The notes beneath the pieces were generated by a model. That model was not told where the DNA came from and did no database searches. It saw only the letters and a program-made list of their open reading frames with translations. A DNA stretch of 64,000 bases, taken from contig NZ_AUKE01000019.1 in the NCBI RefSeq assembly GCF_000424585.1, positions 1 to 64,000 of the forward strand. Reading direction: 5' to 3'. The translations under genes and the position numbers were made by a program. Position 1 is the stretch's first letter, and each line of letters opens with the position of its first letter. This document shows, in pieces, positions 35,720 through 62,138 of this stretch. The DNA comes from Butyrivibrio sp. MC2013. GTDB lineage: Bacteria; Bacillota; Clostridia; Lachnospirales; Lachnospiraceae.

Positions 35720-38177
35720 TCCGGCAAAGGATGATGTGTTAAAGAAGAATGCCATGAAGCAGGAGAGCTTTAACGCAAAGTCTGATACCGGAGAGTTTAA
35801 GAATGAAAGAGCGGGTCCGAAAGGATCCGCGAAGACCGGGGGTAAGAATTTATCCCCGAAGGAAAAAACTGTTTCCGAGGCGCAGGAGATGTTCACGCAG
35901 GGGACTGAGAACAAAGTCGGTTCCAAGTCTGAACAGCAGAGCAGAAAGGCAAATCAGGAGTTCTTTAGCAAGCATGAGCAGGAGGATGAAAGAAATACCG
36001 AATATGCATCCCAGCGCGAGGAGACAAGAGCAAGACGCATTCACAGGCAGCACGATACGCGGACCCGCGTTAAGGACAGCTTCATACAGTCAGACGGTGA
36101 TTTCCATGATAAGACAGGATTTGTGGAGGAAGCCGGAGCTGAGTTGGATAGCAAAAAGCTGGACAAGCTTGAAAAGAAAGCAGAAAAAGCGGGAAAGAAA
36201 ACAGAAAAGGCGCGTAAGAAGCTGCCACAGCGTAAGGAATACAAACTGGTACGCCACTTTGATGAAAAGACGGGGAAGGTCACTTATGAGCTTCAGACAA
36301 ATAAAGTTCCAAAGAGACCAAAAAACGGAAATCCCATAACGGCGGCACAGCGCAGGGCTGCGATGGAAGCCACAGGCTTTGTGCACCAGAAGATCGCGGA
36401 AAATGAAAAGGAAAACGCAGGTGTCGAAGGTGCTCATAAGACTGAACAGGCAGGAGAGGCGGTGATAGATTATGCAAGACGTTTTAAGCGTGACAAATAT
36501 GCCCGCCGTGCCAACAAAGTAGCAGCTCTGGAGAAGAAACAGTTTAAGGCAGAAGTCAATTTCCGTTATCAGAAGTTTCTGGAAGAACACCCGGAGGTGA
36601 AGAAAAAAGCCATACAGAAGAGGTTGCAGAAACAGAAGATCAAGCGGGAATATGCCAAAGCATTAAGGAAAGGAACGGAGGCAAAGCAGGCGGCGGGATA
36701 CGCCAAGAAAGCAGCTCAGACAACCACGACAATCGCAAGAAAGTTACAGGAATTTGCCCGGAAGCACATAGGAGCGATCGCAACTATAGGACTCTTCGGG
36801 CTTTTCTTTATGCTGATCGCGGCGGGTGTATCGAGCTGTGCTGCCATCTTTAACGGCGGGGTTTCAACGACCATGGCAGGGAGCTACCAGAGTGTGCCTG
36901 CACAGCTGGATGCATCCGATGAGGCTATGACCTCAAGGGAGATGGCTTTGCAGAATACCATTGATTCCATTGAAACGGACTACCCGGACTACGACGAGTA
37001 CAACTATAACCTTGCAGAGATCGGGCATAATCCGTTCACGCTGATCAATTATCTTTCAGCGACAAAGGTGAATGTGGTGGCTGCGGACTGTGATGCCGAG
37101 ATCGAATCACTTTTTAATGAAATGTATGAGCTGACCCTTACGCCAAGAGAAGAAACAAGAACAAGAACGGTCACGCAGACCAATGAAGAAACAGGTGAAG
37201 AGGAAGAAGTGGAAGAGGAATACACGGTAACGATCCTTGATGTGGAGCTGACCAGAAAGCCGCTTGAGGATATCGTGGCGGACAGACTTACCGGGAATGA
37301 TGATGCCAGTTCGCTTTATGTGGCTTATCAGGCTACAAACGGTGCACTTCAGCAGTTTTACACGCCTCTTGATGTCGATTGGTACAACCTGATCTCAAGC
37401 TATTACGGATATCGTAAGAATCCCGTCACGGGAGAGAATCAGTTCCATCGCGGGATTGATATAGCGGTTCCGGAAGGTACAGAGGTCTATGCGGCACAGG
37501 ACGGAACGGTAACAACGGCAGAGTATAACAGTGAATACGGAAACTATATCGTCATAGAAGATGCGAACGGGTTTGTGACGAAATATGCACACCTGTCGAG
37601 TATGAATGTTTCTGCCGGACAGACTGTCAAGCATGGAGCGGTTATAGGAAAAACAGGAAATACCGGATCCAGTACCGGAAGCCATTTACATCTGGAGTGC
37701 CTTGCGAGTGGAGAGTATTACAATCCACTCTTTTATTTTGAGAACGGAGACGGTTCGATCTATGGCACAACGGACCCCATAGGTGGTAACGGTGATGTGG
37801 CGGCATTGTTTGACGAGGCGGAAAGGTATCTTGGATACCCTTATGTATGGGGCGGTTCAAGTCCTTCAACGAGTTTTGACTGCTCGGGATTTGTCTGCTA
37901 CGTGGTGACCCACAGTGGTTATTACAATCTGCCGAGGACAACAGCACAGGGCATTTATAACCAGTGCCAGCATATCAGCGCATCGGAGGCAAAAGCAGGA
38001 GACATCATTTTCTTCACGGGAACATACAACTCCGGTAATCCGGTAACCCACGTAGGAATCTATGCCGGAAACGGACAGATGATCCACTGCGGTGATCCCA
38101 TCAAGTATACCTCGATCAATACGCCATACTGGCAGAATCATTTCTATGCCTTTGGTCGTTTGCCTGCTTCACCATAG
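35700..38177 (+). CDS. bifunctional M23 peptidase + NlpC/P60 cell-wall hydrolase
   Basis: This 825-residue protein cuts the cell wall for the transfer channel. A long charged N-terminal region (to ~350, rich in K, E, R), one membrane helix (about 356-384), a variable stretch with an E/T-rich segment, then an M23 zinc peptidase (HRGIDI near 581 and HLHLE near 663 keep all metal ligands), and an NlpC/P60 domain (FDCSGFVC near 728; HVGIYAG near 784; catalytic Cys and His present). I start at ATG 35700 (ggag at 35687), overlapping virB4 by 20 nt. Confidence 0.92.
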   Translation: MAKKQNNPAKDDVLKKNAMKQESFNAKSDTGEFKNERAGPKGSAKTGGKNLSPKEKTVSEAQEMFTQGTENKVGSKSEQQSRKANQEFFSKHEQEDERNTEYASQREETRARRIHRQHDTRTRVKDSFIQSDGDFHDKTGFVEEAGAELDSKKLDKLEKKAEKAGKKTEKARKKLPQRKEYKLVRHFDEKTGKVTYELQTNKVPKRPKNGNPITAAQRRAAMEATGFVHQKIAENEKENAGVEGAHKTEQAGEAVIDYARRFKRDKYARRANKVAALEKKQFKAEVNFRYQKFLEEHPEVKKKAIQKRLQKQKIKREYAKALRKGTEAKQAAGYAKKAAQTTTTIARKLQEFARKHIGAIATIGLFGLFFMLIAAGVSSCAAIFNGGVSTTMAGSYQSVPAQLDASDEAMTSREMALQNTIDSIETDYPDYDEYNYNLAEIGHNPFTLINYLSATKVNVVAADCDAEIESLFNEMYELTLTPREETRTRTVTQTNEETGEEEEVEEEYTVTILDVELTRKPLEDIVADRLTGNDDASSLYVAYQATNGALQQFYTPLDVDWYNLISSYYGYRKNPVTGENQFHRGIDIAVPEGTEVYAAQDGTVTTAEYNSEYGNYIVIEDANGFVTKYAHLSSMNVSAGQTVKHGAVIGKTGNTGSSTGSHLHLECLASGEYYNPLFYFENGDGSIYGTTDPIGGNGDVAALFDEAERYLGYPYVWGGSSPSTSFDCSGFVCYVVTHSGYYNLPRTTAQGIYNQCQHISASEAKAGDIIFFTGTYNSGNPVTHVGIYAGNGQMIHCGDPIKYTSINTPYWQNHFYAFGRLPASP

Positions 38178-38521: not shown

Positions 38522-40334
38522 GATTACGGCATCGCTGATCCTTTCGGTGATGCTTTTTGCACTGCCGGTGGGAGCCTTTATTGCGAACACTTCAAATGCT
38601 GTCACGGCATATGCGGAAGATGATGTGTCCGGGAATGAATCGGGTGATAATACGAATCCCGGTGATGGCACAGGAGATGCTACAGACGGTGAGACGATCG
38701 GAGGAGAAACCGGTGACGGGAATACCGATAACGGAAATGCCGGTGACGGAGAAACCGGTAACGGAAATTCCGACAACGGTGAAGGTGATGAATCCGGGGA
38801 AGGCGGAGAAGAGGGAGATGATCCCGAACCCACACCGGAGCCGACGCCTGAACCCGAACCGGAGTGTATCTGTGAGCATAAGTGCAGTCAGTATGACTAC
38901 AACAAGGACTGCCCTGTGTGCAGTGCAAACTATAAGGATTGCCAGTACAAGGATCCGAGTGTGAAGATCACCATCGACGCACCAAGCGGTTGGTATGGAA
39001 GAGGAAGCTCTGTAAAGGTGAAGTTCAAAGTTGAGGATATCCTTGATACCGGCAACTTCGCAGTTAAGTCTGTCAGGGCAAAGATCGGACAGAACGGAAG
39101 CTATCAGGATGTTACCGAGGATATGTATATCGAGATCACGGAGAACTGTTCTGTATATGTCCTGGTAACGGATGCGAATGATAAGAGTTATGAGCGCAGC
39201 CGTTCCATCAACTGTTTTGATACCACAAAGCCTACGCTTAATGCGGCAGTATCAGAGGGACTTCTTACGGTACAGGCATCTGATACAGAGTCCGGGATCA
39301 AAGTCATCTATGTGAACGGATATGAATTTAAGGATGACATTACAAACGGAACATTGAACATCCGTCTGTCTCAGTTTGATGCAGGTTATGAGTATTTCAC
39401 CATTACGGCTATGGATAATGCCGGCAATGTGTCTGAGGTATATAAGACGAAAAATCCTTACTATAAGGATCCAAAGTCAGAGGATGATTCCAATCCCGCA
39501 GAACAGCTGCCTGTCAGTGCGGAGGCGACAAATCCTTCCAGTGCCACGGCAACTGTAACTCAGCATACACAGACTGACAGTAACGGCAATACCACAAGCC
39601 AGACACCGAAGACTCCGGAACAGCAGAAAAAGGAGGAGTTCGCCAGGGCTGATGCAGAAGAAGCAGCGTTATCGGATGATGAAAAGGGCGAAGATATGAA
39701 TCTTGGCAAAGAGTTTTATACCATCGAGGCTGCAAGCGGTAAGGTCTTTTATCTGATCATTGACCGTGATGGCGAAGAGGAAATGGTGTACTTCTTAACG
39801 GAGATCACGGAGAACGATCTGCTCAATGTAACGACAGACAATTCCGAAACACTGCCTAAGAATTCTGCGGCCCTTGAATCACAGATCCCTGTGACGGAAA
39901 GCGCACTCCCGAATAACAATACGGATTATGAGGAGACACATGAGGTGGCTACTCCGACTGAGACACCTGCAGAGGAAAGTACAGAAGAGCCTTCTGAAGA
40001 GCCTGCGGAGGAAGAAAAGGAACCTGTAAAGAGCAATCCGTTGGTGGGATATCTTATCATGGGTATCCTTGGTGCAGGAGTGATCGGTGCTGCTTATTAC
40101 TTCAAGGTGGTAAAGAAGAAGCAGGACGGAGATTTTGTAGAGGATGAGGACGAAGAGGACGAGGATGAAGATTATGAATCCGAAGAGGAGGCTTCCTCAG
40201 AGGATGATTTCTTTAGTGAAACGGAGAAGAAGGAATCTGAGAGACCCGCGCCTTCAGCTGATGATGTGGCCGATACCATAGAGGATGCTGACGAGGATGA
40301 TGATCCTTATGAATCTGACTCTGACAAAGAGTAA
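38499..40334 (+). CDS. DUF4366 (CD1107-type) surface protein
   Basis: This 611-residue exported protein has a signal peptide (about 1-40), a Gly/Asn/Asp/Glu-rich low-complexity segment with repeated GDGxTGxGNxDNGN-type units (~45-105), a PEPTPEPTPEPEPE stretch, a cysteine cluster (CICEHKC, CPVC), an Ig-like middle part (~150-280), a conserved domain (~380-440), a membrane helix (~525-550) and an acidic D/E-rich tail. It is probably a cell-surface component of the transfer apparatus. ggaga site at 38485. Confidence 0.87.
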   Translation: MQKKLFRRITASLILSVMLFALPVGAFIANTSNAVTAYAEDDVSGNESGDNTNPGDGTGDATDGETIGGETGDGNTDNGNAGDGETGNGNSDNGEGDESGEGGEEGDDPEPTPEPTPEPEPECICEHKCSQYDYNKDCPVCSANYKDCQYKDPSVKITIDAPSGWYGRGSSVKVKFKVEDILDTGNFAVKSVRAKIGQNGSYQDVTEDMYIEITENCSVYVLVTDANDKSYERSRSINCFDTTKPTLNAAVSEGLLTVQASDTESGIKVIYVNGYEFKDDITNGTLNIRLSQFDAGYEYFTITAMDNAGNVSEVYKTKNPYYKDPKSEDDSNPAEQLPVSAEATNPSSATATVTQHTQTDSNGNTTSQTPKTPEQQKKEEFARADAEEAALSDDEKGEDMNLGKEFYTIEAASGKVFYLIIDRDGEEEMVYFLTEITENDLLNVTTDNSETLPKNSAALESQIPVTESALPNNNTDYEETHEVATPTETPAEESTEEPSEEPAEEEKEPVKSNPLVGYLIMGILGAGVIGAAYYFKVVKKKQDGDFVEDEDEEDEDEDYESEEEASSEDDFFSETEKKESERPAPSADDVADTIEDADEDDDPYESDSDKE

Positions 40335-43398: not shown

Positions 43399-43558
43399 GA
43401 TTAAAACTATGCCAAAGGTTGAAACAGAAAGCGTAAGCAAGGGCGCACAGCGTGCGAGATATACCGCATATATGCAGGGACTTCGTAAGCTGGAGCAGAG
43501 GGTACAGTCAGAGAAGAACAGCCGCGAGAAGGCTGCCAGAGTAGGAGGCGCAGTATGA
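43391..43558 (+). CDS. 55-residue basic protein, unknown
   Basis: ATG at 43391 within the end of the preceding gene; a gagga site is just upstream. Sequence is polar and helical (SKGAQRARYTAYMQGLRKLEQRV). Its stop overlaps the start of the DUF5688 gene, so the three small frames form a coupled run. Confidence 0.6.
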   Translation: MSEIKTMPKVETESVSKGAQRARYTAYMQGLRKLEQRVQSEKNSREKAARVGGAV

Positions 43559-44706
43559 TGGATTTTGAAGAGTTTAAGGCAAGTGTGGCAGAACAGATCA
43601 AGGATTATCTGCCTGAGAAGTATGCAGATGCAACTGTCGATCTGCAGAATGTGACCAAGAATAACGATACCGTGCTGACCGGTCTTCTTATCAGAACCGA
43701 GGACAGCAATATCGCTCCGAATATCTATCTTGAGAACTTCTTCGCACAGTATCAGGATGGAGAGAATCTGGGGAATATTCTTCAGCATATCGCTGATATC
43801 CGTGTGAACCATGAGATGGAACAGGCCTTTGACGTGAGCAAGATTACGGATTTTGACCAGGTGAAGGATCATATCATCTGTAAGCTTGTAAATGCCGAGA
43901 TGAACGCAGATTACCTTGCAGATAAGCCCCACACTCTTGTGGAGGATCTTGCAGTCGTATATGCGGTAGACCTCGGCGGTGGTGAAGGCGGTCGTATGAG
44001 CGCACCTATCACCAACAATCTTATGGAACAGTACGGAGTGACCACGGAGGAACTTCATGATATCGCACTTCAGAATCTATCTGAGTCTCAGATCGAGTTC
44101 AAGACAATGAGGGATGTACTGGTGGATATGATGTTCCCTGATGGAATCCAGGAAGGGGATCCCAGAGCGTTCATGCTCCCGCCCGAAGAGGAGAATCCTT
44201 CCATGTACGTGCTTTCCAATGCGGACAAGCTTAACGGAGCTGCCGCACTTTTGGATGCTAAAACAATGGAAGATATTTCCGAGAAGCTGGGCGGCGATTT
44301 CGTGGTTTTACCTTCAAGTATCCATGAGACCATCGTTTTGCCTCTGAATGAGGATATGGATAGACATACCCTGGAAGCAATGGTGCAGGATGTTAATGCA
44401 GGCCAGGTCGCTCCAGAGGAAAGGCTTTCCGATCATGTTTATATGTATGATTCTCAGGCTAAGGAGCTTGTCCTTGCCGACAAGATGGAGGAACGCCAGC
44501 AGCAGAGAGCTGAAGCTCAGAAGGATGCCAAGGAAGCTGAACAGGCTGATAAGCCCGATAAGACAGAGCGCGGTGAAAAGAAGCCGGAGCGCGAGCGTGT
44601 ATCCATGAAGGAGAAGCTTCCCGAGAAGAAGGCGGAAGTCGCAAAAAACGAAGCAAACCGGGAACATCCGGTACCAAGCAAGACGAAGGAGACGGCACTG
44701 GCGTAA
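43555..44706 (+). CDS. DUF5688 family protein with shared C-terminal tail
   Basis: 383 residues. The body (1-300) looks like DUF5688: GGEGGRMSAPITNNLMEQYG, PEEENPSMYVLSNADKLNGAAALLD and FVVLPSSIHETIVLP. The C-terminus carries VSMKEKLPEKKAEVAKN and ends SKTKETALA, the same tail as three other element proteins. Function unknown; it is common in Clostridial conjugative elements. The start overlaps the previous stop. Confidence 0.85.
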   Translation: MMDFEEFKASVAEQIKDYLPEKYADATVDLQNVTKNNDTVLTGLLIRTEDSNIAPNIYLENFFAQYQDGENLGNILQHIADIRVNHEMEQAFDVSKITDFDQVKDHIICKLVNAEMNADYLADKPHTLVEDLAVVYAVDLGGGEGGRMSAPITNNLMEQYGVTTEELHDIALQNLSESQIEFKTMRDVLVDMMFPDGIQEGDPRAFMLPPEEENPSMYVLSNADKLNGAAALLDAKTMEDISEKLGGDFVVLPSSIHETIVLPLNEDMDRHTLEAMVQDVNAGQVAPEERLSDHVYMYDSQAKELVLADKMEERQQQRAEAQKDAKEAEQADKPDKTERGEKKPERERVSMKEKLPEKKAEVAKNEANREHPVPSKTKETALA

Positions 44707-44739
44707 AGCTGCATGACCGTTTGCAGGAAATGTTGTCGG

Positions 44740-44772
44740 ATTGGGGCAGTCGAAAGGCTGCCCCGATTCTTT
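44740..44772 (+). terminator. terminator after DUF5688 gene
   Basis: attggggcag (44740-44749) pairs with ctgccccgat (44758-44767), extended by t-g and c-g to a GAAA loop; tctttac follows, a weak T-run. It sets off the cargo patch that follows. Confidence 0.7.
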
Positions 44773-44781
44773 ACGAGGGGA

Positions 44782-44892
44782 ATGAAGATGGACGATTACG
44801 ATAGTGAGGATGTTGTACTTGTAATAGCGGGTGTATTTGCAGCATCCTGTGTAGGCAGATTTATCCTGATGTTTTTGCTTGCCATGCTATAA
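44782..44892 (+). CDS. 36-residue membrane peptide, unknown
   Basis: ATG 44782 with gagggg upstream. Acidic start (MKMDDYDSEDV) then one hydrophobic helix to the C-terminus (VLVIAGVFAASCVGRFILMFLLAML). Plausible small membrane protein; not recognised. Confidence 0.45.
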   Translation: MKMDDYDSEDVVLVIAGVFAASCVGRFILMFLLAML

Positions 44893-44947
44893 TATCCGAA
44901 GGTAAATATGTCGATATAACTTTAATGGGCATATTTGGAGGAAAGAG

Positions 44948-45604
44948 ATGTCGATAGCAAAAACGCAGACCTCTGAGAGCTTTCGATTAAGTGCGTTGCT
45001 TTCATTTTCGGGAGGACTACAGGATGCATATACTTATAATGTGAGGGATGGTGTATTCGCTAATGCCCAGACCGGTAACGTGGTACTGATGAGTCAGAAT
45101 TTTATGCAGGGAGAGTGGCATAAGGGGTTACGATATATGCTTCCACTCATATCTTTTGCCGCTGGTATTTTTTTGGCTGAAAGGATCGAGAGCAGGTTTA
45201 AGACAGGCAGCAAGATTCACTGGAGACAGATCATACTTTTCATCGAGATCGTAATGCTTTTGGCTGTTGGGTTTATGCCGTCAGGGTTAAGTATGCTCGC
45301 AAATATCATGGTATCATTTTCATGTGCCATGCAGGTGCAGACATTCAGAAAGGTCCATGGATATGGATATGCCAGTACGATGTGTATCGGCAATCTGAGG
45401 AGCGGTACGGAAAGCCTGTCACAGTATTTCAGAACGAAGGAGAAGGGATCCCTGTACAAGGCATTTCATTTCTTTGGTATTATTTTTATCTTTGCCATAG
45501 GAGCCGGCATTGGTGGGATACTTTCTTCAAGGTTCGGTACCGGTACGATATGGATCTCTCCGGCAATTCTTCTTGTGGTAGCTTTGATGATGGTCAGGGA
45601 GTGA
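44948..45604 (+). CDS. YoaK family (DUF1275) membrane protein
   Basis: 218 residues with about six helices. FSGGLQDAYTYNVRDGVFANAQTGNVV is the DUF1275 signature. Function in transport is suspected but unproven. ggagg at 44938. It is the first of four genes that look like chromosomal cargo rather than transfer functions. Confidence 0.88.
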   Translation: MSIAKTQTSESFRLSALLSFSGGLQDAYTYNVRDGVFANAQTGNVVLMSQNFMQGEWHKGLRYMLPLISFAAGIFLAERIESRFKTGSKIHWRQIILFIEIVMLLAVGFMPSGLSMLANIMVSFSCAMQVQTFRKVHGYGYASTMCIGNLRSGTESLSQYFRTKEKGSLYKAFHFFGIIFIFAIGAGIGGILSSRFGTGTIWISPAILLVVALMMVRE

Positions 45605-45623
45605 GATACGAGGAGGCATATGA

Positions 45624-46103
45624 ATGATTATTCGAAAATATGAAGAAAAAGACATTAGTAAGATGATAGAAATCTGGAATGAAGTTGTCGAGGATGGAAT
45701 AGCGTTTCCTCAGGAAGATCTGCTTGACGATGTGTCAGGCCGGGAGTTTTTTGAATTGCAGAGTTATACTGGAGTTGCTGAAGACGATGGACAGATTGTT
45801 GGTTTATATATTTTGCATCCGAATAATGTCGGTAGATGTGGACATATTTGTAATGCAAGTTATGCAGTAAGTTCAAAGTGTCGAGGGTTGCATATTGGAG
45901 AAAAGCTGGTAATAGATTGTCTATCCAAAGGTAAAGAACTTGGCTTTCGGGTATTGCAGTTTAATGCTGTAGTTGAGAGCAATGTGCATGCGAGACATTT
46001 ATATGAGCGATTAGGCTTTGTGCAGTTGGGAACGATACCGGGTGGATTCAGAATGAAAGACGGGCATTACGAGAATATCTGTCCGTACTATCATACACTT
46101 TAA
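45624..46103 (+). CDS. GNAT family N-acetyltransferase
   Basis: 159 residues with the GNAT fold: start MIIRKYEEKDISKMIEIWNEV, acetyl-CoA loop region SSKCRGLHIGEKLV, and NVHARHLYERLGFVQLGTIP. Resembles phosphinothricin/amino-acid N-acetyltransferases of unknown substrate. AT-richer than its neighbours, which supports independent acquisition. gaggc site before ATG. Confidence 0.88.
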   Translation: MIIRKYEEKDISKMIEIWNEVVEDGIAFPQEDLLDDVSGREFFELQSYTGVAEDDGQIVGLYILHPNNVGRCGHICNASYAVSSKCRGLHIGEKLVIDCLSKGKELGFRVLQFNAVVESNVHARHLYERLGFVQLGTIPGGFRMKDGHYENICPYYHTL

Positions 46104-46151
46104 CTTTCAGTATAAACGGTTAAGCAAATCGAGATTTGAAGAGGTGAAGCC

Positions 46152-46562
46152 ATGGCATGGAAATGTCCGAAATGCGGCAGAGAGTTCAGCAGACAAAACC
46201 AGGACCATTACTGTGTGAAACCGCAGAATATTGATGAATACATTGCTGCCCAGGATGAGAAATATAAGCCCAGATTAATGGAGATCCGGGAGATCCTTCG
46301 TGATGCACTGCCGGACGCGGAGGAACGGATCTCCTGGTCGATGCCCACTTATTGGAAAGGTCGTAATATCATTCATTTCGCAGCATCAAAGAAACATCTG
46401 GGCATTTATCCCGGTGATGAGGCTATAGCTGTATTTACGGAGGAACTCTCCGATTATGACGTAAGCAAGGGCACGATACGGATCCCCTATGATCAGCCTT
46501 TGCCGGAAGCACTGATCATAAGGATCGCAAAATGGTGCTTTGAGAACTATTCCAAAAAGTAG
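46152..46562 (+). CDS. DUF1801-like protein with N-terminal zinc finger
   Basis: 136 residues. The first 22 residues hold a zinc-finger pattern (CPKCGREFSRQNQDHYC); the rest fits the DUF1801/YdhG fold (DEKYKPRLMEIREILRDALPDAEERISWSMPTYW, GIYPGDEAI). Function unknown. aagaggtg site upstream. Confidence 0.82.
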   Translation: MAWKCPKCGREFSRQNQDHYCVKPQNIDEYIAAQDEKYKPRLMEIREILRDALPDAEERISWSMPTYWKGRNIIHFAASKKHLGIYPGDEAIAVFTEELSDYDVSKGTIRIPYDQPLPEALIIRIAKWCFENYSKK

Positions 46563-46689
46563 ATTGCTGGCTGCTGGAATTAGCACTGTAGATTCCCGTT
46601 TGTCGGGATGACGCAAAGTCGGGATTTATCTTAGAGATAATTGATGGACGAGAATTACCAGAATATATGACAATGAATAAGGGGAAGAT

Positions 46690-47556
46690 ATGTGGCTGAT
46701 CATGGCGGCTTTGTCCGCGCTCTTTGCCGGACTTACGGCGATACTTGCGAAATGCGGGATCAAAAAGACTGATTCAGACGTGGCGACTGCTCTGCGGACG
46801 GTCGTTGTACTCCTTTTTGCCTGGATCATGGTGTTTATCGTTGGCTCTGCCGGAACGATCACGGAAATATCGGCAAAATCTATCATCTTCTTAATTCTGT
46901 CCGGCCTTGCGACAGGAGCCTCGTGGATCTGCTATTTTAAAGCCCTGTCCGTCGGCGATGTGAACAAGGTCGTACCCGTCGATAAATCCAGCACGGTTCT
47001 GACAGTGCTTCTCGCAATCATCCTTTTCAGTGAGACAGAACATCTGGCGGTCAAGCTGATCGGTACTGCACTTCTTGCGGCAGGCGTGTTTCTGATGATC
47101 GAAAAGAAGAAAACTGAAGCAAAGGACACAAAGCGCACGTGGCTGCCCTACGCGATCGGTTCCGCTGTTTTTGCTGCCCTGACCTCTATTCTGGGAAAGA
47201 TCGGCATAACGGATGTAGAATCAAATCTCGGGACGGCGATCCGTACAGGTGTTGTTCTTGTTATGGCTTGGCTGATCGTCTTCGTTAAAGGTAAAGGTGC
47301 TGAACTGAAAAATACTGATTCCAAAGAACTTGTATTCATAGCTCTGTCCGGGATTGCCACAGGCGCATCATGGCTCTGTTACTATTACTCCATACAGAAC
47401 GGCGTCGTCAGCGTTGTCGTACCGATCGATAAGCTCAGCATTATCGTTTCCGTCGCTTTTTCCTATTTCGTATTCAAAGAAAAGTTGAGCAGAAAGGCGT
47501 TTGCCGGGTTGATTCTGATCGTTGTCGGCACTTTGGCGATGGCGATCTGGGCATAG
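46690..47556 (+). CDS. EamA/DMT family transporter
   Basis: 288 residues, ten membrane helices made of two EamA repeats (first and second halves both start with ...LSALFAGLTAILAKCGI / VFAALTSILGKIGI and share SGxATGASWxCYxxx). Exporter or permease of unknown substrate. aaggggaag site. A terminator follows at 47652. Confidence 0.9.
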   Translation: MWLIMAALSALFAGLTAILAKCGIKKTDSDVATALRTVVVLLFAWIMVFIVGSAGTITEISAKSIIFLILSGLATGASWICYFKALSVGDVNKVVPVDKSSTVLTVLLAIILFSETEHLAVKLIGTALLAAGVFLMIEKKKTEAKDTKRTWLPYAIGSAVFAALTSILGKIGITDVESNLGTAIRTGVVLVMAWLIVFVKGKGAELKNTDSKELVFIALSGIATGASWLCYYYSIQNGVVSVVVPIDKLSIIVSVAFSYFVFKEKLSRKAFAGLILIVVGTLAMAIWA

Positions 47557-47697: not shown

Positions 47698-47729
47698 ATA
47701 AAGAAAAATGGAAGGAGGAAATGTATCAA

Positions 47730-50700
47730 ATGGCAAGACGATACCATGAAATCAAAGGACTTGCGGAGTACATGGCTAAGACCATCGTGTCGGATGAAGA
47801 GCAGTGGAAGAAGTTTCTGCATACGGCGGGACATATGTACAAGTACCCTTTCAGAGAGCAGATGCTGATCCATGCTCAGAGACCGGATGCAACGGCCTGT
47901 GCTTCACTGGAACTTTGGAATGAGAAGATGAACTGTTGGGTCAACAAAGGCGCGCAGGGCATCGCACTCATTGACGAGGAGGGGGTGCACAGATCGGGGC
48001 TGAAATATGTTTTTGATGTCAAAGATGTGCACGAAGCAAGGTTTGTAGGGCACAAGCCCAGGCTCTGGAGTATGGAGGAAGAGCATAAGAATTATGTGAT
48101 CGATTCTCTGGAGAAGATTTACGGGGAGACTGATGCGAGCCGGCCTTTTGAGAACAGGATCATGGAGCTGGCAAACAGGATCGCGTCGGAGATGGCTCCG
48201 GATATCGTATCAGACCAGTTATCAATGTCTGTTGAAGGCAGCTATCTCGACGGACTGGATGAACTGAATCTGGAGGTGAGGTTACAGCAGACTTTGGCGG
48301 CAAGTATCGCTTATACGGTTCTTGAACGATGCGGTATGGATGCGGATATAGTGGGAGTGGAGTTTCCCTATCTTCATGAGTTCAACTCCATTGAATCTTT
48401 ATCCGTTATGGGTGAGGCTTCATCCGAATTATCCGGTCCCATTCTTCGTGAGATCGGCAGGAGCATTTCGATATATGACCGTGAGAAGGCTCAGGAAGCC
48501 GTCAGAGCCTCACGCGAAGAATATATCGACCGCCAGAGCGAAAGAGGCGAGAAAAGACTTGCAAATGCGCCAGAGCGTGGCTATAATGCCTTAACGCCAA
48601 GTGGTGAGGAGCGAGGTAATGAATATATCGAGAGCGCAGACAAAGGCGCGGAAAGGAGCGATTATGCAGATAGAGTACATTCAGAGCGGAGACTTTCAGA
48701 TCCCGAACCTGACAGCGAACAAAGAGCCGGAGGGGATGCTCACGAAGTACGGACTGATGAGGAAGAACTTTCTGAAGGAGCACAGGAGAGGAGTCTACAG
48801 CGGGATGCTTCTGAAGGGAACACTGAAAGAACATTGTCTGACGATACAGGAGCAGGCAGATCAGAGGATGGATCTTCTGACAGAGCAGATGGCGAAGGAT
48901 CAGGGCGTGGACGAACAGATGAAGCGCAACGATCAGATGAAGTGGGTAGGTCTGATGAACAACATCAGGAACTCAGCGGAGGAGATAGTTTTATCGGAGC
49001 TGATCTACAGCTAAATCCCCCAGAGGAAGAACTAAAACAACTGAATCTTTTCGATCTGTTCCCAAGCTTTGAAGAACAGATGGGAAATATGATAGCAGCG
49101 GAGGCAAGTGTAAAACACGAAAAACCCGCTGCATTTTCTTTGTCTGATAACCAGATAAACGAGATCCTTCGCACCGGCGGAGGAATGGAGAATAGCCGCA
49201 AGCGTATCTATGCGAAGTACCAGGAACATAAGTCTCCTACAGAAATGGCAGAGTTCTTAAAGGCTGAGTACCGTACTACCGGGAAAGGCTTCACCTTTGG
49301 CGACAGTCCCGTGTCCGTCTGGTTTGACGAGGGCGGAATGAAGGCAGGCTTTGGCACATCTGCAAGAGAGAATACGGTTCTTGAGATGGGCTGGGCTGAA
49401 GTAGAAAGTTATGTCAGAGGAATGGTCGAGGGCGGCACATATATGAATCGTGCAGAAGCCTTCCTTGTTGATCAGACGGAACGCGCCAGAGTAGCCAATC
49501 ATATCTACTTCTTTTTCCGTGACGGACTGGACGAGATGCCGGAGTCTCTTGGGATTGCGGGAAATAATTATCCCGATGGGGAAGCACACCTTATGGAGCT
49601 GCTTTCTACGCACGAGGGGCGCAACACGATCAGCGCGGAGCTTGAAAAGGCAAAGTCGGCACTTGATAGCGGAGAGGTTGAGCTTAGATGGAGATATATC
49701 AAATCACCGGAGTATCTGCTTGATGAGGTTGCGGATCTTGATACGGAGAAGATAGAGTTTCCTACACCTGATGAGGTGGATATCAAGCAGGAGAGCTTCA
49801 TTACGCAGGATGAGATCGACTCTATTCTGACAGGCGGCAGTGGAGTATCCGGGGGAAAGCTCCGTATCTATGAGTATTTTCAGCAGAGACACGATAGCAA
49901 GGATAATATTGCCTTTCTTAAAAATGAATACGGGACCGGCGGCAGGTCACATGCCCTTATCGGTAATGATCAGAGCTGGGAGGATCATGATGCAAAGGGG
50001 ATAAAACTCTCCAAGGGCAGTATCATGGAGCCTTATGCAACAGCAATCCTTTCCTGGAATATTGTTGAAAAGCGTATCCGTGAGCTTGTAGCCGAAGACC
50101 GGTATCTGAATCAGGCAGAGAAGGAAGAACTCGAAAACAGATATCTGGAGAGTGCTGCGGAGGAATTATCGGATGAAGAGAATACAGTGGATCGGGCAAT
50201 GGCTGATGAAGAGCGTGAGATAGCAGAGATTATACAACCTGTCGAAGAAAGTGCTGAAAAAGTCCTGACAGCGGATGATATTCAGAACATCCAGTATATC
50301 AGCGCCGAATACAGTAACTTCGGACATACAGCGGAGTATGAGCTTGAAGCCGATGTTGATGGTGAAAGGCAGACCCTGCACTATGAGGTTACAAGACATG
50401 ACGGAGACGAGGAGAGCTTTTCTATCCATACGGATGAAAATGATGTCTATGACCGTTTATCCGGGGCAGAGCTTACTAAGCTTGAAGAAAAGCTATCTGA
50501 TGAGGTAAGAGTCGGCAGGTATGCTCAGAAGATAGAAAAAGCAGAATCTATGGAAGACCTCGATAACATCCGTTTCGAGTTTATGGATGACGAGTCATTT
50601 CCGCGCAGGCTGACAGGAAGATTTTGGGAAGCCTATGGGCAAAAGGAGAATGATCTTTCACCGACACCCGACGATGATCTTGCTTTAGTACCTGAGACGA

Positions 50701-53700
50701 GGGATGAGAGTAAAGAACAGGCTCCTGCCATCGACAAGACCGGCGCAGAGAATTTCCGCATCACGGATGATCACCTTGGTGCAGGCGGCCCGAAGGAGAA
50801 GTTCAGAAGGAATATTGCTGCAATAGAGACCTTAAAGCAGGTTGAGAGCGAGAATCGTGTGGCAACACCGGAAGAGCAGCAGATACTCTCCCAGTATGTC
50901 GGCTGGGGCGGTCTTGCGGATGCTTTTGATGAAAGCAAGAGTAACTGGTCGGATGAATATGTCCAGCTGAAAGGACTGCTCACGGACGAGGAGTATAAGG
51001 CGGCAAGGGAGAGTACCTTAAATGCGCACTATACAAGTCCTGTGATCATCCGCAGTATCTATGAAGCACTTGGAAATATGGGCTTTGAAAAAGGCAATGT
51101 CTTAGAGCCTGCCATGGGTGTCGGTAACTTCTTCGGTATGCTGCCTGAAAAGATGCAGGACTCGCGGCTTTACGGTGTGGAGCTTGATGATATCACAGGC
51201 CGTATCGCAAGACAGTTATATCCCAAGGCGGATGTCCGTATCAGCGGATTTGAAAAGACTGATTTTCAGAATGATTTCTTTGATGTGGCGATCGGTAACG
51301 TGCCTTTTGGTAACTATCAGGTACCGGACAGAGCTTATGATAAGCTGGGTTTCCAGATCCACGATTATTTCTTTGCAAAGACGCTTGATAAGGTAAGACC
51401 GGGCGGTATCGTCGCATTTGTTACAAGCAAGGGGACGATGGATAAGCAGTCGCCACAGGTGAGAAAGTACCTCGCACAGAGGGCGGAGCTTGTAGGAGCG
51501 GTGAGATTACCGAATACAGCCTTTAAGGAGAATGCCGGAACAGAAGTAACGTCCGACATTCTTTTTTTCAAGAAGCGTGACAGGCTGATGGATATCGAGC
51601 CGGACTGGGTGCATCTGTCTACCAATGCAGATGGTATCTCCATGAACCAGTATTTTGCAGATCATCCTGAGATGATCGTAGGTAGGATGGCTGAGGTATC
51701 GGGACCTCACGGTATGGAGACAGCCTGCCTGCTGGATGAGAGCAGACCTTTTGAGGATCAGTTAAGAGACGCAATCAGCAATATCTCCGCCACCTATGAA
51801 GCGGTAGAACTGGAAGAAGGCGAGGAGCTTGTCTTTGATACTATCCCAGCGGATCCGAATGTGAAGAATTACAGCTATTGTGTGGTGGATGATAAGGTCT
51901 ATTACCGTGAGAACAGTATCATGAAGCCTGCAGATGTGTCGGAAAGCATGGAAGAGCGCATCAAGGGGATGATCGGGATTCGTGACTGTACGCAGGAACT
52001 TATCAATATGCAGATGGAAGAATATTCCGATGCGGCGATCACGGCCAAACAGCAGGAACTGAACGACAGATATGATGATTTTTCAAAGAAGTTCGGTCTG
52101 ATCAGTTCCCAGACAAATAAGCGTGCATTTAACCAGGATTCAAGCTACTGCCTGCTCTGCTCACTGGAGAAGCTGGATGATGAGGGAAAGTTTGAAGGCA
52201 AGGCAGATATGTTCACGAAGCGTACCATCAAGCGTGCGGAGGTTGTAACCAGTGTTGATACGGCAAGTGAAGCGCTGGCTGTATCCTTATCCGAAAAAGC
52301 AAGGGTAGATCTGCCGTATATGGCGGAGCTTGCAGGTAAATCTGAGGACGAGATAGCCGATGAGCTTGCAGGAGTTATCTTTAAGAATCCTCTGACTGAT
52401 AAGTGGGAGACCGCTGATGAATATCTGTCCGGAAATGTAAGAGAGAAGCTGTCTGTGGCAAGGAATTATGCGGAAAATCATCCGGAGTATGCGGTGAATG
52501 TATCTGCACTTGAGTGTGTGCAGCCCAAGGAACTGGATGCATCGGAGATAGAGGTGCGTATCGGTGCTACCTGGATCGATCCGAAGTATATCGAAGACTT
52601 CATGCGTGAAACTTTCCAGACACCGGATTATCTCTTTAACAGGGATGTGGTAGGTGTGCAGTTCTCAGGTATCACTGGGCAGTGGAATGTGAAGGGCAAG
52701 AATGCCGATTATGGCAATACCCTTGTACACAGTACCTTTGGTACCGGCAGGGCTAATGCATATAAAATCCTGGAGGATAGTCTTAATCTGAAGGATACCC
52801 GTATCTATGATACAGTGGTGGAGGATGGCAAGGAAAAAAGAGTGCTCAATAAAAAGGAGACAACTCTTGCCAGTCAGAAGCAGGAAGCGATTCGTGAAGC
52901 ATTTAAGGATTGGATCTTCAGGGATCCGGAGAGACGAGCAGCGCTTACGGCAAAATATAACGAGTTGTTCAACTCAACCAGACCGAGAGAGTATGACGGA
53001 TCACATCTTAAGTTCCCGGGCATGACACCGGATATTGAACTGAAGCCTCATCAGAAAAATGCTGTAGCGCATGTTCTGTATGGAGATAATACGCTTCTGG
53101 CTCATTGCGTTGGTGCCGGCAAGACTTTTGAAATGACTGCAGCGGCAATGGAGAGTAAGAGACTGGGGCTTTGTCATAAATCGCTCTTTGTGGTGCCAAA
53201 CCACTTAACGGAGCAGTGGGCTAGTGATTTCTTAAGACTCTATCCCGGAGCAAATATCCTGGCGGCTACGAAAAAGGATTTTGAGCCTGCCAACAGGAAG
53301 AAGTTTTGTTCCCGTATCGCTACCGGGGATTATGATGCAGTCATCATCGGGCACAGTCAGTTTGAGAAGATCCCGCTTTCCACGGAGAGACAGATCGCTA
53401 TCATAGAGCGTCAGATCGAGGAAATTGAAACGGCCATAGCACTGGCAAAGGCGGAGCGGGGCGAGCGCTATACCATCAAGGAGATGGAGAAGAGCCGTAA
53501 ATCCCTTGTGGCGAAGCTTGATAAGCTGAACGATACCACCAGGAAGGATAATGTAGTAACTTTTGAGCAGCTTGGTGTGGACAGACTGTTTGTGGATGAG
53601 AGCCATAATTATAAGAACCTGTTTCTCTATACAAAAATGAGAAATGTGGCGGGTATCGCACAGACCGAAGCGCAGAAGTCTCAGGATATGTTCAATAAGT

Positions 53701-55745
53701 GCCAGTATCTGGATGAACTGACAGGCGGTAAGGGTGTGACCTTTGCAACCGGAACGCCTATCAGCAACAGTATGACGGAGCTTTATACCAACATGAGATA
53801 TCTTCAGTATGCGACGCTTCAGAAGATGGGACTGGGACAGTTCGATTCCTGGGCTGCAACCTTTGGCGAGACACAGACGGCGATAGAGCTTGCACCAGAG
53901 GGCACAGGGTATCGTGCCAAGACAAGGTTTGCGAAGTTCTTTAACCTGCCGGAACTGATCGCGCTCTTTAAGGAAAGTGCCGATATACAGACACCGGATA
54001 TGCTGAAACTTCCTGTGCCGGAGGCTGAGTATGAGAATGTGACCTTAAAACCGTCCGAAGCACAGAAGCAGATGGTGGAGTCATTGGCTGAGAGAGCAGA
54101 GAGAGTGCGTAACCGTATGGTGGATTCTTCTGTCGATAATATGCTCAAAATAACCAATGACGGACGAAAGCTGGCACTGGATCAGAGGCTTATGAACGAT
54201 ATGCTGCCGGATGATCCGAACAGTAAGGCAAATGTATGTGTGGAGAAAGCCTTTGAGATATGGGAAAAGACAGCAGATAAGAGGTCAGCGCAGCTGATCT
54301 TTTGCGACTTAAGTACACCGAAGGGAGACGGAACCTTTAATGTGTATGAGGATATCAGGGATAAGCTCATAGCAAAAGGAGTGCCACCAGAAGAGATTGC
54401 CTTTATCCATGATGCGAATACGGAACTGAGGAAAGCGGAGTTGTTTGCGAAAGTAAGAAGCGGGCAGGTCCGTTTTTTATTGGGATCCACTGCAAAGATG
54501 GGAGCCGGTACGAATGTGCAGGATAAGCTGATAGCGCTGCATCATTTGGATGTGCCCTGGAGACCATCTGACATTGAACAGCAGGAAGGCCGTATCTTAC
54601 GACAGGGTAATACCAATCCGAAGGTGAAGATCTTCAGGTATGTCACGGAAGGGACATTCGATGCCTACAGCTGGCAGCTGATCGAGAATAAGCAGAAGTT
54701 CATCGGTCAGATCATGACGAGCAAATCTCCGGTCAGAAGCTGTGAGGATATTGACGATGCCGCGCTTACCTATGCAGAGGTTAAGGCTCTGGCAACAGGT
54801 AATCCATACATCAAGGAAAAGATGGACTTAGATATCCAGGTCAGCAAGCTTAAGCTCATGAAGGCGAATCATACCAGTCAGAAGTATCGGTTGGAGGATG
54901 ATATCGCACAGAGATATCCGAAGCAGATCTCGGCACTTAAGGAAAAGATCGAAGGTTTGAAGGCTGATATCGCGGATTACAACGCAAGGAAGCCTGCCGA
55001 TAAGGAGATCTTTGCCATGACCGTGGCAGGAAAGACTTATGAGGACAGAAAGGAAGCGGGAACTGCGCTGATCGCAGTCTGCAAGGAAATGAAGTCTGCC
55101 AATACACCGGTATCCGTGGGTGAGTATCTGGGGATGAAGATGGCTGTGACCTTTGATTCATTTTTTAAGAAGTTCACACTGACCTTAAAAGGGAACCTTA
55201 GCCATAACGTGGAAATCGGATCAGACCCTTCCGGTAATATCACCCGTATCAACAATGCACTGGAGAGCATGACAAAACAGTTGGAGGAGGCTGTAGCAAA
55301 GCTTGAAAATGTGGAGCATCAGCTGGAAACGGCTAAGGTGGAAGTGGTGAAGCCTTTTGCACAGGAAGCAGAGCTGGCCGAGAAGCTGGACCGTCTGGCG
55401 GAGCTTAATGCGCTCCTTAACATGGATGAGAAGGGTGATGAAGCCGTGGATATGGATGATGATGCCCCGAAGCAGGAAACACAAGCGGACAGACAGGACG
55501 GACAGACTCAGCACAGCAATATCACCTATGTGGATACTCAGGTGGAAGTCCGTAAGGCATCCGAGCCTTCTGTAAGCTACGGAGGTAAGGTATCTGAATT
55601 CAAAGTGGAATATGCCGCAAAGAAGCCTGAAAAGGCTGAATCCGGCAGACCTTTCCACGACAAGCTTGAGGCAAAGAAAGGTGAGGTGGCAAAGCAGTCG
55701 CCCCCAAAGCCTGCAGAGGAAAAGAGTAAGCAGACATCATTATAA
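47730..55745 (+). CDS. giant polyvalent protein: ArdC-like, N6-methylase, SF2 helicase
   Basis: About 2671 residues. Order: ArdC-like N-terminal part (1-130, [23 protein letters not shown]); low-complexity linker (~270-430) overprinted by tnpV; two copies of a ~110-residue module (~460-600, ~690-805); adenine methylase ([11 protein letters not shown] ~1128, NVPFG ~1192); helicase with Walker A HCVGAGKT ~1796, DESH ~1958 and [11 protein letters not shown] ~2286; coiled coil; and the shared tail ([13 protein letters not shown]...SKQTSL). Such proteins enter the recipient and protect element DNA, by family knowledge. ATG 47730 is 11 nt after aggagg; ATG 47721 is an alternative. Confidence 0.9.
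48664..49014 (+). CDS. tnpV: TnpV-type protein, overprinted inside the helicase gene
   Basis: A complete 116-codon frame lies in the +1 phase relative to the surrounding 8-kb gene. ATG 48664 has aaaggag at 48652-48658, 5 nt upstream. The protein ([75 protein letters not shown]) looks like TnpV, the small transposon-encoded family PF14198. In the other frame the same bases encode only a polar, repetitive linker. Function of TnpV is not known. Expression is inferred from the ribosome site and family match. Confidence 0.82.
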
Positions 55746-58653: not shown

Positions 58654-58902
58654 ATGGTTTGTCCTAAATGTCATAGCGAAAATGTAAATGCACAGATTGT
58701 TAACACGGTCACCCTTAAGGATAAGCACCACGGTATCATTTGGTGGCTCTGTGTTGGATGGTGGTGGGTTCCGATTAAGTGGTTGTTCTTTACGCTGCCT
58801 GCTCTGATATTTGCAATTTTCGGCAGAAAGAAGCAGAAAGCGGTTAATAAGAAAGAGACCATGTGTGTATGTCAGAACTGTGGGTATAGCTGGAAGGTTT
58901 AA
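58654..58902 (+). CDS. small zinc-ribbon membrane protein
   Basis: 82 residues. CPKCHSEN at the N-terminus and CQNCGYSWKV at the end form a split zinc ribbon; two hydrophobic, tryptophan-rich helices lie between (IIWWLCVGWWWVPIKWLFF). ATG 58654 has aggagg 9 nt upstream. Function unknown; the pattern is common in short Firmicute membrane proteins. Confidence 0.75.
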   Translation: MVCPKCHSENVNAQIVNTVTLKDKHHGIIWWLCVGWWWVPIKWLFFTLPALIFAIFGRKKQKAVNKKETMCVCQNCGYSWKV

Positions 58903-58921
58903 AAGAAAGGCAGGTAAGGCC

Positions 58922-59218
58922 ATGAAAGAAGTATATTTTACTATTACAGGAACGAATCATTATCTTGGCAGCGATTTCCTTAAGAAGGGGATGAAGGTAA
59001 AGCTGATCAAGGAGCCTGACAATGAGTATGACAAGGAGGCAATTCGCGTCGAACTTAAGGGTTTGGGCAAGATCGGCTATGTGGCAAACAGCCCTTACAC
59101 GGTAATCGGTGAGAGCAAGAGCGCCGGTCGTATGTATGACCTCATGAAGAAGAAAGCCAAGGGCAAGGTGCTCTTAGTGACTGCAAAAGGTGCTCTCTGT
59201 GAGCTGAAAGGGGATTGA
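58922..59218 (+). CDS. HIRAN-like domain protein
   Basis: 98 residues. GTNHYLGSDFLKKGMKVKLIKEPDNEYDKEAIRVE and GKIGYVANSPYTV fit the HIRAN fold, known in SNF2-type proteins such as HLTF, where it binds DNA ends. Here it stands alone. ATG 58922, 19 nt after the previous stop, with a weak aggtaagg site. Confidence 0.7.
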   Translation: MKEVYFTITGTNHYLGSDFLKKGMKVKLIKEPDNEYDKEAIRVELKGLGKIGYVANSPYTVIGESKSAGRMYDLMKKKAKGKVLLVTAKGALCELKGD

Positions 59219-59228
59219 TGCTCATATG

Positions 59229-59345
59229 ATGAGGTTCATATACTGGGTAAGGAAGTGCCTCCGGGGTAAGAATAAATACTGTAAAGGCATCTGTATGACC
59301 TGTGCATATTATGAGCAGTGCAAGGGTGACTCGGATATGCAATAG
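59229..59345 (+). CDS. 38-residue cysteine-rich peptide
   Basis: MRFIYWVRKCLRGKNKYCKGICMTCAYYEQCK...: six cysteines, a CxxxCxxC-like pattern. ATG 59229 follows the HIRAN stop by 10 nt. Similar short CRGxCxTCxYYEQC peptides occur in Lachnospiraceae (from memory). Possible zinc or Fe-S binder; unknown. Confidence 0.5.
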   Translation: MRFIYWVRKCLRGKNKYCKGICMTCAYYEQCKGDSDMQ

Positions 59346-59441
59346 ATGAAATGCAAGAGTGTACGATAATTTTCCCACTAAATGATGTAAAGCCGCCTGA
59401 ATTGTGGTAAAATCGAGAAAACCTATAGGGAGGTACACATC

Positions 59442-60437
59442 ATGCCAAAGGGAACCAATCAGAAGCTGAAACTGTATTATTTGAGCCGTATCATGACGGA
59501 GAAGACCGACGATGAGCATCATATTACGATGCCGGAGATCCAGAGGGCACTGGAGGGCTACGGTGTCACCGCTGACCGGAAGAGCCTGTATGACGATCTG
59601 GAGGCGCTGAGAGTCCTTGGAATAGATGTAATCGGAGAAAAGAACGGGCGCAGCTATTCCTATCATGTAGGAAAAAAGCAGTTTGAGATAGCGGAACTGA
59701 AACTCTTGGTGGATGCGATACAGTCCTCGAAGTTCATCACGGAGAAGAAATCCAATGATCTGATAAAGAAGCTGACGAGTCTCGCCAGCAATTATGAGGC
59801 ATCACAACTTAAGCGGCAGGTGGTGGTACAGGGACGGATCAAGACGATGAATGAGAGCATTTACTACATCGTCGATGATATCCATAATGCCATAACCAAT
59901 AATAAGAAGATCCGCTTCGAGTACCTGCGCTGGAACCTGGATAAGAAAATGGAGCGGAGAAAGGATAAGCTCTATGAAGTCAGCCCCTGGGCACTCACAT
60001 GGGATGATGAGAACTATTATCTGATCGGTTTTGATGCGGAGGAGGATAAGATCAAGCATTATCGCGTAGATAAGATGCGTGATATAGAGCTTACGGACGA
60101 GAAGCGTGAAGGTAAGGAACATTTCAAGCAGTTCGATATGGCTGCCTATGCCCGGATGAACTTCGGAATGTTCGGCGGTGAAGAGGTCAGGGTAAATCTC
60201 CACTTCCAGAATGAGATGGTGGGCGTGCTCCTGGATCGCTTCGGAAAGGATATCTCCATATATAAGACAGACAAGGAAGGCTGGTCGGAGACCTATGTGG
60301 ATGTAGCCCTCAGTGATCAGTTCCTTGGATGGATCTTTTCACTGGGAACGAAGGTGAAGATCGTCGGCCCGGAGGAAGTAGTGGAGAGATTCGCCGGGGA
60401 AATTAGGGCGATGAATAAGATGTACGGGAAAAAGTAG
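59442..60437 (+). CDS. WYL-domain transcriptional regulator
   Basis: 331 residues: winged-helix N-terminus (15-80; ITMPEIQRALEGYGVTADRKSLYDDLEAL), then a WYL domain (~140-225; KKIRFEYLRWN, YEVSPWALTWDDENYYLIGFD) and a WCX-type C-terminus (VNLHFQNEMVGVLLDRFGKDI). WYL proteins often control phage-defence operons (e.g. BrxR/CapW). gggaggt site; an extended -10 (tggtaaaat, ~59412) lies upstream. It precedes the XRE/unknown/SNF2 genes by 340 nt. Confidence 0.9.
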   Translation: MPKGTNQKLKLYYLSRIMTEKTDDEHHITMPEIQRALEGYGVTADRKSLYDDLEALRVLGIDVIGEKNGRSYSYHVGKKQFEIAELKLLVDAIQSSKFITEKKSNDLIKKLTSLASNYEASQLKRQVVVQGRIKTMNESIYYIVDDIHNAITNNKKIRFEYLRWNLDKKMERRKDKLYEVSPWALTWDDENYYLIGFDAEEDKIKHYRVDKMRDIELTDEKREGKEHFKQFDMAAYARMNFGMFGGEEVRVNLHFQNEMVGVLLDRFGKDISIYKTDKEGWSETYVDVALSDQFLGWIFSLGTKVKIVGPEEVVERFAGEIRAMNKMYGKK

Positions 60438-60488
60438 TTTTTTTACCAACCGTAGGAAAGAATTTTAAGAAATAAGTACCTTTACAAC

Positions 60489-60532
60489 AGAGATCAGGAT
60501 AAGGAATTGGAATAGCCTATATTCTGGTCTCT
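60489..60532. other. hairpin after WYL gene
   Basis: agagatcag (60489-60497) and ctggtctct (60524-60532) pair with one wobble around 26 nt. No T-run; a T7 run lies earlier, directly after the WYL stop codon, without a hairpin. Confidence 0.4.
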
Positions 60533-60541
60533 ATTTATATG

Positions 60542-60592
60542 GATGTTATAGATGTTATATAGATGTTAAGGAAATCAAAGGGAAATCAAAGG
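60542..60592. repeat. short direct repeats upstream of XRE operon
   Basis: gatgtta occurs at 60542, 60551 and 60562 (spacing 9 and 11), and the 11-mer gaaatcaaagg occurs twice in tandem (60571-60592). They lie 50-100 nt upstream of the XRE promoter, a good position for a regulator-binding site, for example of the WYL protein. Confidence 0.5.
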
Positions 60593-60641
60593 GATTCCTT
60601 TTTCTGGGTAAATCAAATATTTATATTTATAAAGATAATCG

Positions 60642-60670
60642 TAGACTTAATAAAGCAAGAATGGTATAAT
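60642..60670 (+). promoter_or_regulatory. promoter for XRE/377-aa/SNF2 operon
   Basis: Extended -10 TGgTATAAT (TATAAT at 60665-60670) with tagact (60642-60647) as -35 at 17-nt spacing (4 of 6 match). Transcription would start near 60677. Confidence 0.72.
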
Positions 60671-60679
60671 CGTATTCGG

Positions 60680-60716
60680 GTGTAGGCCCCGCCGACTGAC
60701 CTGATCGGCGCGCTAC
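60680..60716 (+). ncRNA. GC-rich structured leader of XRE gene
   Basis: cgccga (60690-60695) pairs with tcggcg (60705-60710), and gtag (60682-60685) with ctac (60713-60716). It is the only GC-rich stretch in an AT-rich region and starts at about the predicted transcription start. No known riboswitch recognised. Confidence 0.4.
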
Positions 60717-60774
60717 TGTTTTGGTTTTGTTTTATGATGCGAAATATGTTTTTAAATCTGAATGCGAGGTAAAA

Positions 60775-60996
60775 ATGAAAGTCTCTTATAACGGGTTATG
60801 GAAATTGCTAATAGATAAAGGAATGCAAAAAACAGACCTAATTGACACGGTAGGAATTAGCTCGACGACTATTGCGAAAATGGGAAAAGGAGAAAAGGTT
60901 TCACTGGATGTGCTGGAGAGACTCTGCAAGTACTTCGATTGCAACATAGGTGATGTAGTGAGCTTTGACAGAGTTGATGGACAACCGGAGGATTAG
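60775..60996 (+). CDS. XRE-type small transcriptional regulator
   Basis: 73 residues, one Cro/CI helix-turn-helix (LIDTVGISSTTIAKMGKGEKVSLDVLERLCKYFDCNIGDVV), as in YozG-like regulators. ATG 60775 with gaggt at 60766; upstream in-frame starts lack a ribosome site. It is 3 nt from the next gene and probably autoregulates the operon. Confidence 0.85.
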   Translation: MKVSYNGLWKLLIDKGMQKTDLIDTVGISSTTIAKMGKGEKVSLDVLERLCKYFDCNIGDVVSFDRVDGQPED

Positions 60997-60999
60997 GTT

Positions 61000-62133: not shown

Positions 62134-62138
62134 CATCC

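Follow-up and report, generated by a model that had tools for sequence, protein, structure and literature searches.

The locus studied here raises the question whether a single stretch of DNA encodes two selected proteins, one of them a transposon-type protein read in a shifted frame inside a giant polyvalent gene. It lies in a window of 64,000 nucleotides from Butyrivibrio sp. MC2013, which is the whole stretch of DNA that was analysed. We propose that the locus is very probably a conserved nested gene pair, in which one mRNA with two starts would give two proteins and both frames are under selection. The features in question, in window coordinates, are:

47721..55745, forward strand: giant polyvalent gene enclosing tnpV, an open ORF of 2674 codons
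47721..48593, forward strand: ArdC-N-like N-terminal domain of the giant protein, with homologues across family and class
48652..48658, forward strand: Shine-Dalgarno-like AAAGGAG, followed by a 5 nt spacer and the tnpV ATG
48664..49014, forward strand: tnpV, a 116-codon ORF at +1 to the giant ORF (coordinates include the TAA stop)
48664..49014, forward strand: polar linker of the giant protein (host residues 315-431), the tnpV bases read in the host frame
53034..54608, forward strand: helicase part of the giant protein (residues 1772-2296), with ResIII at 1772-1967 and a sub-threshold Helicase_C match at 2223-2296

Anatomy of the nested pair

The tnpV frame begins with an ATG at 48664-48666, 943 nt beyond the start of the giant ORF, and ends with a TAA at 49012-49014, giving a product of 116 aa. 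The original prediction of a 116-codon TnpV in a shifted frame, with aaaggag 5 nt before its ATG, proved exact to the base. The product matches the Pfam profile PF14198 (TnpV) at 140 bits (cut-off 27, E 3.7e-41), with residues 4-114 spanning positions 1-111 of 111. A full-length family match of this kind is unexpected by accident, which argues that tnpV is not a chance ORF. It is the one TnpV match in its own genome. The polar linker that had been described for the host protein at this place was also recovered, as residues 315-431 form a stretch rich in D, E, R, S and G.

Within the giant protein, ResIII scores over its Pfam cut-off, and the SNF2-related, Eco57I methylase and Helicase_C matches lie below theirs. 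With the Pfam ArdcN profile, 8 of 19 relatives gave a match at E up to 1, the best being E 1.8e-5, and the window's copy gave none. If TnpV proteins are randomly recoded with synonymous codons, the host frame stays open at a mean probability of 0.0003-0.001 per gene. Elsewhere in the window, other same-strand ORFs of 101-178 codons are nested in or mostly overlap longer ORFs (35803-36339, 38557-38964 and 45322-45627).

Upstream of the giant gene are genes for a T4SS coupling protein, TrbL_2, a TraG P-loop protein, an M23/NlpC-P60 peptidase, a CD1107-like protein and a topoisomerase, and downstream of it is a RadC/YodL/LPD16 polyvalent protein. This neighbourhood is that of a conjugative element, so tnpV rides on mobile DNA. 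The window's contig gave no hit to a serine or tyrosine recombinase or to an integrase. Between the topoisomerase and the giant gene (43555-47553) lie cargo-like genes (DUF5688, DUF1275, GNAT, DUF1801, EamA). Past the element's genes, both in the window (58811-64000) and in L303:811-14917, there is a defence-like island with HIRAN, a WYL regulator, an SNF2 helicase, HATPase, HNH, a C5 methylase, Vsr, NOV_C and two GmrSD proteins.

In the proposed mechanism, a single mRNA from the element's transfer region would carry both starts. The first would yield the giant protein with its ArdC-N-like domain, linker and methylase/helicase parts, and TnpV, of 116 residues, would come from the second, where a further ribosome site precedes an ATG in the +1 frame. 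From the sequence, we infer that both proteins are translated and co-expressed, an arrangement that would place tnpV under the control of the transfer gene, as the original prediction suggested. The role of TnpV is likewise read from sequence context. Its predicted structure comprises a beta-hairpin and helices (AlphaFold pLDDT 91.4) and had no fold match in the PDB at E 0.001. Lambda Xis-like excisionases have a winged-helix DNA-binding fold, against which the missing PDB match is no evidence. Tentatively, TnpV might be an accessory of the element's recombination or transfer, a guess by analogy that we would hold with rather less than even confidence. It draws on standalone tnpV genes, which are found in transposons and, on one Campylobacter plasmid, immediately behind a recombinase gene, the end of which that tnpV overlaps by 4 nt. 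On a Salmonella plasmid, the neighbours of tnpV are hypothetical proteins and a resistance gene.

Recurrence of the nested arrangement

PF14198 was found in 104 of 200 sampled genomes of the family, in 100 of them over the cut-off. For the N-terminus of the giant protein, matches came from 119 of 397 family genomes, 100 of 391 class genomes and 33 of 398 phylum genomes; some of those at phylum level are short ArdC-like proteins. From part of the matches listed, we fetched 158 loci by the N-terminus, comprising 78 automatic best matches and 80 loci hand-picked for spread, some of which were already known to adjoin a TnpV match. All were scanned for TnpV in six frames. After exclusion of 8 duplicates, 4 loci with a weak N-terminus and no TnpV, and 1 locus cut by a contig end, 145 were informative.

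In 139 of these 145 giant-gene homologues, a TnpV-like ORF lies inside an open host frame at the identical place and in the identical relative frame. Split by retrieval, the nested arrangement is present in 63 of 67 automatic and 76 of 78 hand-picked loci. The TnpV matches are strong in 126 cases, one of them (L034) cut by its contig end, and weak in 13, all hand-picked distant hosts. A further locus (L245) has TnpV at that frame with the host frame closed. The remaining five were scored as having no TnpV nearby. In three of them the host frame is short (185 aa in L035, 326 aa in L047 and 56 aa in L295). Another, L231, is a giant-gene homologue with an unrelated acidic linker and without tnpV, and in the last (L280:7-503) a tnpV stands un-nested just upstream of the giant gene, which has a short acidic linker instead. 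L231 and L280 look intact without the overlap, so the overlap is dispensable. By eye, the L280 tnpV is followed by an apparent terminator hairpin.

Retrieval by TnpV led to the same place. Among the best 80 of 304 named loci, 78 are nested and the other two (L161 and L169) are disrupted copies. Altogether, 167 nested copies are in the +1 relative frame and none in another. Further TnpV-like ORFs in the same relative frame are carried by plasmids of Bacilli and Oscillospiraceae, from Cohnella (130 bits), Subdoligranulum (166 and 90 bits), Virgibacillus (78 bits), R. albus (28 bits) and Listeria welshimeri (26 bits). The Listeria protein recurs in 95 Listeria plasmid records, which count as one case because they are near-identical (at least 95% identity); plasmid record NC_003383.1 of Listeria innocua Clip11262 also matches. 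The nested arrangement is therefore old and common to most giant-gene homologues examined rather than a local event.

When read individually, the 13 weak hosts and several stronger ones contain open alternative-frame ORFs of about 125-165 codons, with a ribosome-site-like motif of at least 4 bases ahead of a possible start. Eleven loci (L172, L173, L182, L263, L265, L267-L269 and L271-L273) encode, in the alternative frame at this position, proteins of about 135-145 aa that are only weakly TnpV-related; these may represent sister families of TnpV that have yet to be described.

Five loci carry a second tnpV, free-standing and with its ATG preceded by GGAGG (L111:15421-15792, L124:18380-18751, L064:17069-17440, L127:12047-12418 and L082:9968-10339). 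The open frame of the giant gene ends just within this second tnpV, which in L127 comes after an earlier stop. It looks as though an IME had landed in the gene's 3' part, comparable to the IMEs in snf2 genes (PMC9815147).

Selection on the two frames and alternative readings

In 42 independent pairs at 3-18% divergence, the dN/dS of tnpV is 0.140 (CI 0.119-0.160), next to 0.142 for the host N-terminus, so that the low value sought in the +1 frame was indeed found. Substitutions in tnpV follow the order of third, first and second codon position, from most to fewest, in every divergence bin. In 112 non-independent pairs at 3-8% divergence, differences at positions 1, 2 and 3 amount to 0.033, 0.018 and 0.111 for tnpV and 0.057, 0.042 and 0.191 for the host N-terminus. 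The third positions of tnpV, which are the first positions of the host, are thus slowed too.

The host frame leaves its mark on the codons of tnpV. A stop arises in the host whenever a T at a tnpV third position precedes AA, AG or GA. Such a T occurs at 0 of 3615 junctions in 145 nested genes, compared with 241 of 1145 in 44 standalone tnpV genes, although the zero is partly circular because nested copies were defined by their open host frame. In the host's own frame, stop-making T stands at 2646 of 8975 junctions. Retrieval by the host sets no condition of openness, and there the 140 loci with TnpV in this frame divide into 139 open host frames and 1 closed (L245). Nor are the counts for amino acids conditioned in this way. 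T that would make a host Cys is used at 3 of 829 nested junctions versus 145 of 326 standalone ones. The corresponding fractions are 110/1862 versus 188/587 for Tyr, 40/613 versus 62/191 for Trp, 461/1308 versus 253/613 for Phe/Leu and 961/2845 versus 214/779 for Ser. Against a stop-free synonymous null, which is limited by its assumption of pooled synonymous usage, the linkers of 68 thinned genes have less Cys (0.000 versus 0.005), fewer aromatic and hydrophobic residues and less Lys, and more Ser, Asp and Glu; for Gly and Gln there is no difference.

The apparent dN/dS of the host frame in the overlap is 1.91 (1.67-2.22; 42 independent pairs), a value that does not signify positive selection because synonymous changes in the host hit second positions of tnpV. 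The linker sequence itself is loosely constrained. What selection maintains in the host frame is its openness and its coding for a polar linker with little Cys and few aromatic residues. Both tnpV and the giant protein are thus indicated to be under selection, and the original claim of two selected proteins from one stretch is supported.

The best-surviving alternative is that only tnpV is real in the overlap. The giant ORF would then consist of an ArdC-N-like gene and a separate methylase/helicase gene, with the open frame between them a by-product of the base composition of tnpV. This would fit the loose constraint on the linker, the codon usage of the host frame in the overlap, which is unlike the gene's own (r 0.057), and a public annotation that places the start of the SNF2 gene well downstream of tnpV. 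However, tnpV does not by itself keep this frame open. Standalone tnpV genes have a mean of 5.48 stops in the host-equivalent frame, and the two of 44 that are open (L056 and L068) are not true standalone genes, their hosts being broken and cut, respectively; without them, stop-making T is found at 241 of 1089 standalone junctions. Keeping two separate genes would also explain neither the near-constant openness of the host frame (139/140) nor its avoidance of Cys, Tyr and Trp, and we regard this alternative as improbable.

The tnpV start was taken as the ATG nearest the expected place, regardless of any ribosome site, and a strong Shine-Dalgarno motif precedes it in 138 of 146 nested copies. 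Among control ATGs of these host ORFs, counted frame by frame, a strong site occurs in only 235/9365, 29/1003 and 133/5193 cases (2.5-2.9%), in agreement with the conserved ATG and ribosome site that had been anticipated. Across 58 host ORFs of at least 1900 codons, 55 of 56 nested tnpV ORFs combine an ATG with a strong site, as do 5 of 126 other nested ORFs of at least 80 codons, two of which start some 50 bases or less from tnpV and could be the same gene. The constancy of the ATG is partly built in, since the start pickers preferred or required it. In four plasmid nested copies (L312, L314, L315 and L318), the ribosome site is weak or not of the strong kind.

Alternatively, TnpV could be reached by +1 frameshifting from the host frame, which would produce an ArdC-N-TnpV fusion beside or instead of separate TnpV. 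Shine-Dalgarno-like motifs upstream can stimulate frameshifting; such a motif is present here, and the tnpV frame is open for a median of 20 codons ahead of its ATG. Yet the ATG stands at Shine-Dalgarno spacing in the 138 copies, and standalone tnpV genes have a strong site as well (55/64; the start pickers for both sets favoured ATG), which makes frameshifting more improbable still. Finally, the idea that the tnpV ORF is accidental or silent, or that it inserted recently and in this element alone, is hardly credible, for although tnpV genes are mobile elsewhere, it is contradicted by the dN/dS of 0.14, the conserved ribosome site, the shared place and frame in 139 of 145 homologues and a divergence shared with the host.

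Origin of the pair and comparison with known systems

In 63 host genes, synonymous codon usage in the nested pair was compared with the remainder of the host gene. The correlation is 0.498 for the tnpV frame, 0.057 for the host frame in the overlap and 0.589 for control windows, and the tnpV frame exceeds the host frame in 58 of the 63. By the reasoning set out in the accessible text of PMC3744397, gene-like codon usage marks the primary frame of an overlap. The usage of tnpV, closer to the host gene's own, suggests that its frame is primary, and the overprint is then probably the polar linker of the giant protein, although the contrast could reflect only a stronger present constraint on tnpV. 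The original proposal that the host frame had adapted to tnpV therefore holds in so far as the host avoids stops, Cys, Tyr and Trp, whereas its description of tnpV as the overprinted gene is reversed.

Nested TnpV and the host N-terminus have diverged together, as judged from their correlated distances (Mantel r 0.865; highest of 1000 permutations 0.158; 107 loci thinned from 219). In unrooted trees of 87 and 98 rows, which are built on few columns, standalone tnpV genes are placed among nested ones. The starred branches force at least 4 and at least 5 changes of state, respectively, the second tree correcting the labels of L056 and L068, which the first had as standalone, and 0 of 200 bootstrap trees have a single split between nested and standalone genes. 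This suggests that standalone tnpV was released from the nested state several times, which seems more likely than repeated entry into one site and frame. The nested pair may thus be the ancestral home of the known TnpV family. It would have had a single origin before the element's lineages in Clostridia and Bacilli parted and stayed at one site and in one frame, and transposons and IMEs would have gained their free-standing tnpV genes from it in several separate releases. The linker would be an existing gene read out of frame. We consider this history only slightly less likely to be right than wrong. The likeliest origin of the pair would be that an ArdC-N module and a downstream polyvalent gene were joined long ago via an open frame, out of phase, through the intervening tnpV.

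Public annotation treats the pair inconsistently. In Monoglobus, TnpV is kept and the giant gene is truncated in one case; in a Monoglobus plasmid, whose host frame is without part of the N-terminus, TnpV is kept and the giant gene is absent from a table that is incomplete by its own description. Cohnella is annotated with TnpV and an antisense ORF, and the Listeria records listed (20 of 96) have either TnpV or the giant protein. These conflicts fit the NCBI rules, which, in the accessible text of PMC8665328, bar fully embedded genes without individual justification. Nesting may explain why annotation calls either TnpV or the giant gene and cuts or omits the other, and annotation errors are probably frequent for giant conjugation genes as well as for TnpV proteins.

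The TnpV of Tn4451-type transposons and IMEs belongs to the same family, PF14198, which the window's protein matches over its full length and well over the cut-off. There, tnpV is a free-standing gene, whereas the window's tnpV is nested out of frame in the giant gene. Tn6104 of C. difficile encodes a protein 48% identical to the TnpV of Tn4451, and the Tn4451 protein has been postulated to act in excision (PMC3158075, in the part available). IMEs with a free tnpV insert into snf2 genes, as described in the accessible part of PMC9815147, an arrangement different from the nested one. The polyvalent proteins of conjugative elements (Iyer et al. 2017, PMC5512222) are giant and multidomain, with ArdC-N-like, methylase and helicase parts that the window's giant protein would probably share, and a word search of the main text of that paper returned 'TnpV' and 'overlapping' 0 times each. 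Among the titles and abstract beginnings listed by searches of a mainly open-access literature, none gave an earlier report of the overlap between tnpV and the giant gene.

Long overlapping genes of the E. coli O157:H7 type similarly have a whole or near-whole gene embedded in another frame. Few whole-gene overlaps are documented in bacteria, and among the matches listed, in the text available for them, the cases are mostly antisense or young and are described as antisense, recent or orphan genes. Unlike those, the tnpV overlap is on the same strand, its nested product belongs to a recognised family, and it is found in more than one class of Bacillota. With its presence in more than 100 sampled elements, a named family and signs of selection in both frames, the pair offers a natural test of long-term sharing of DNA by two proteins.
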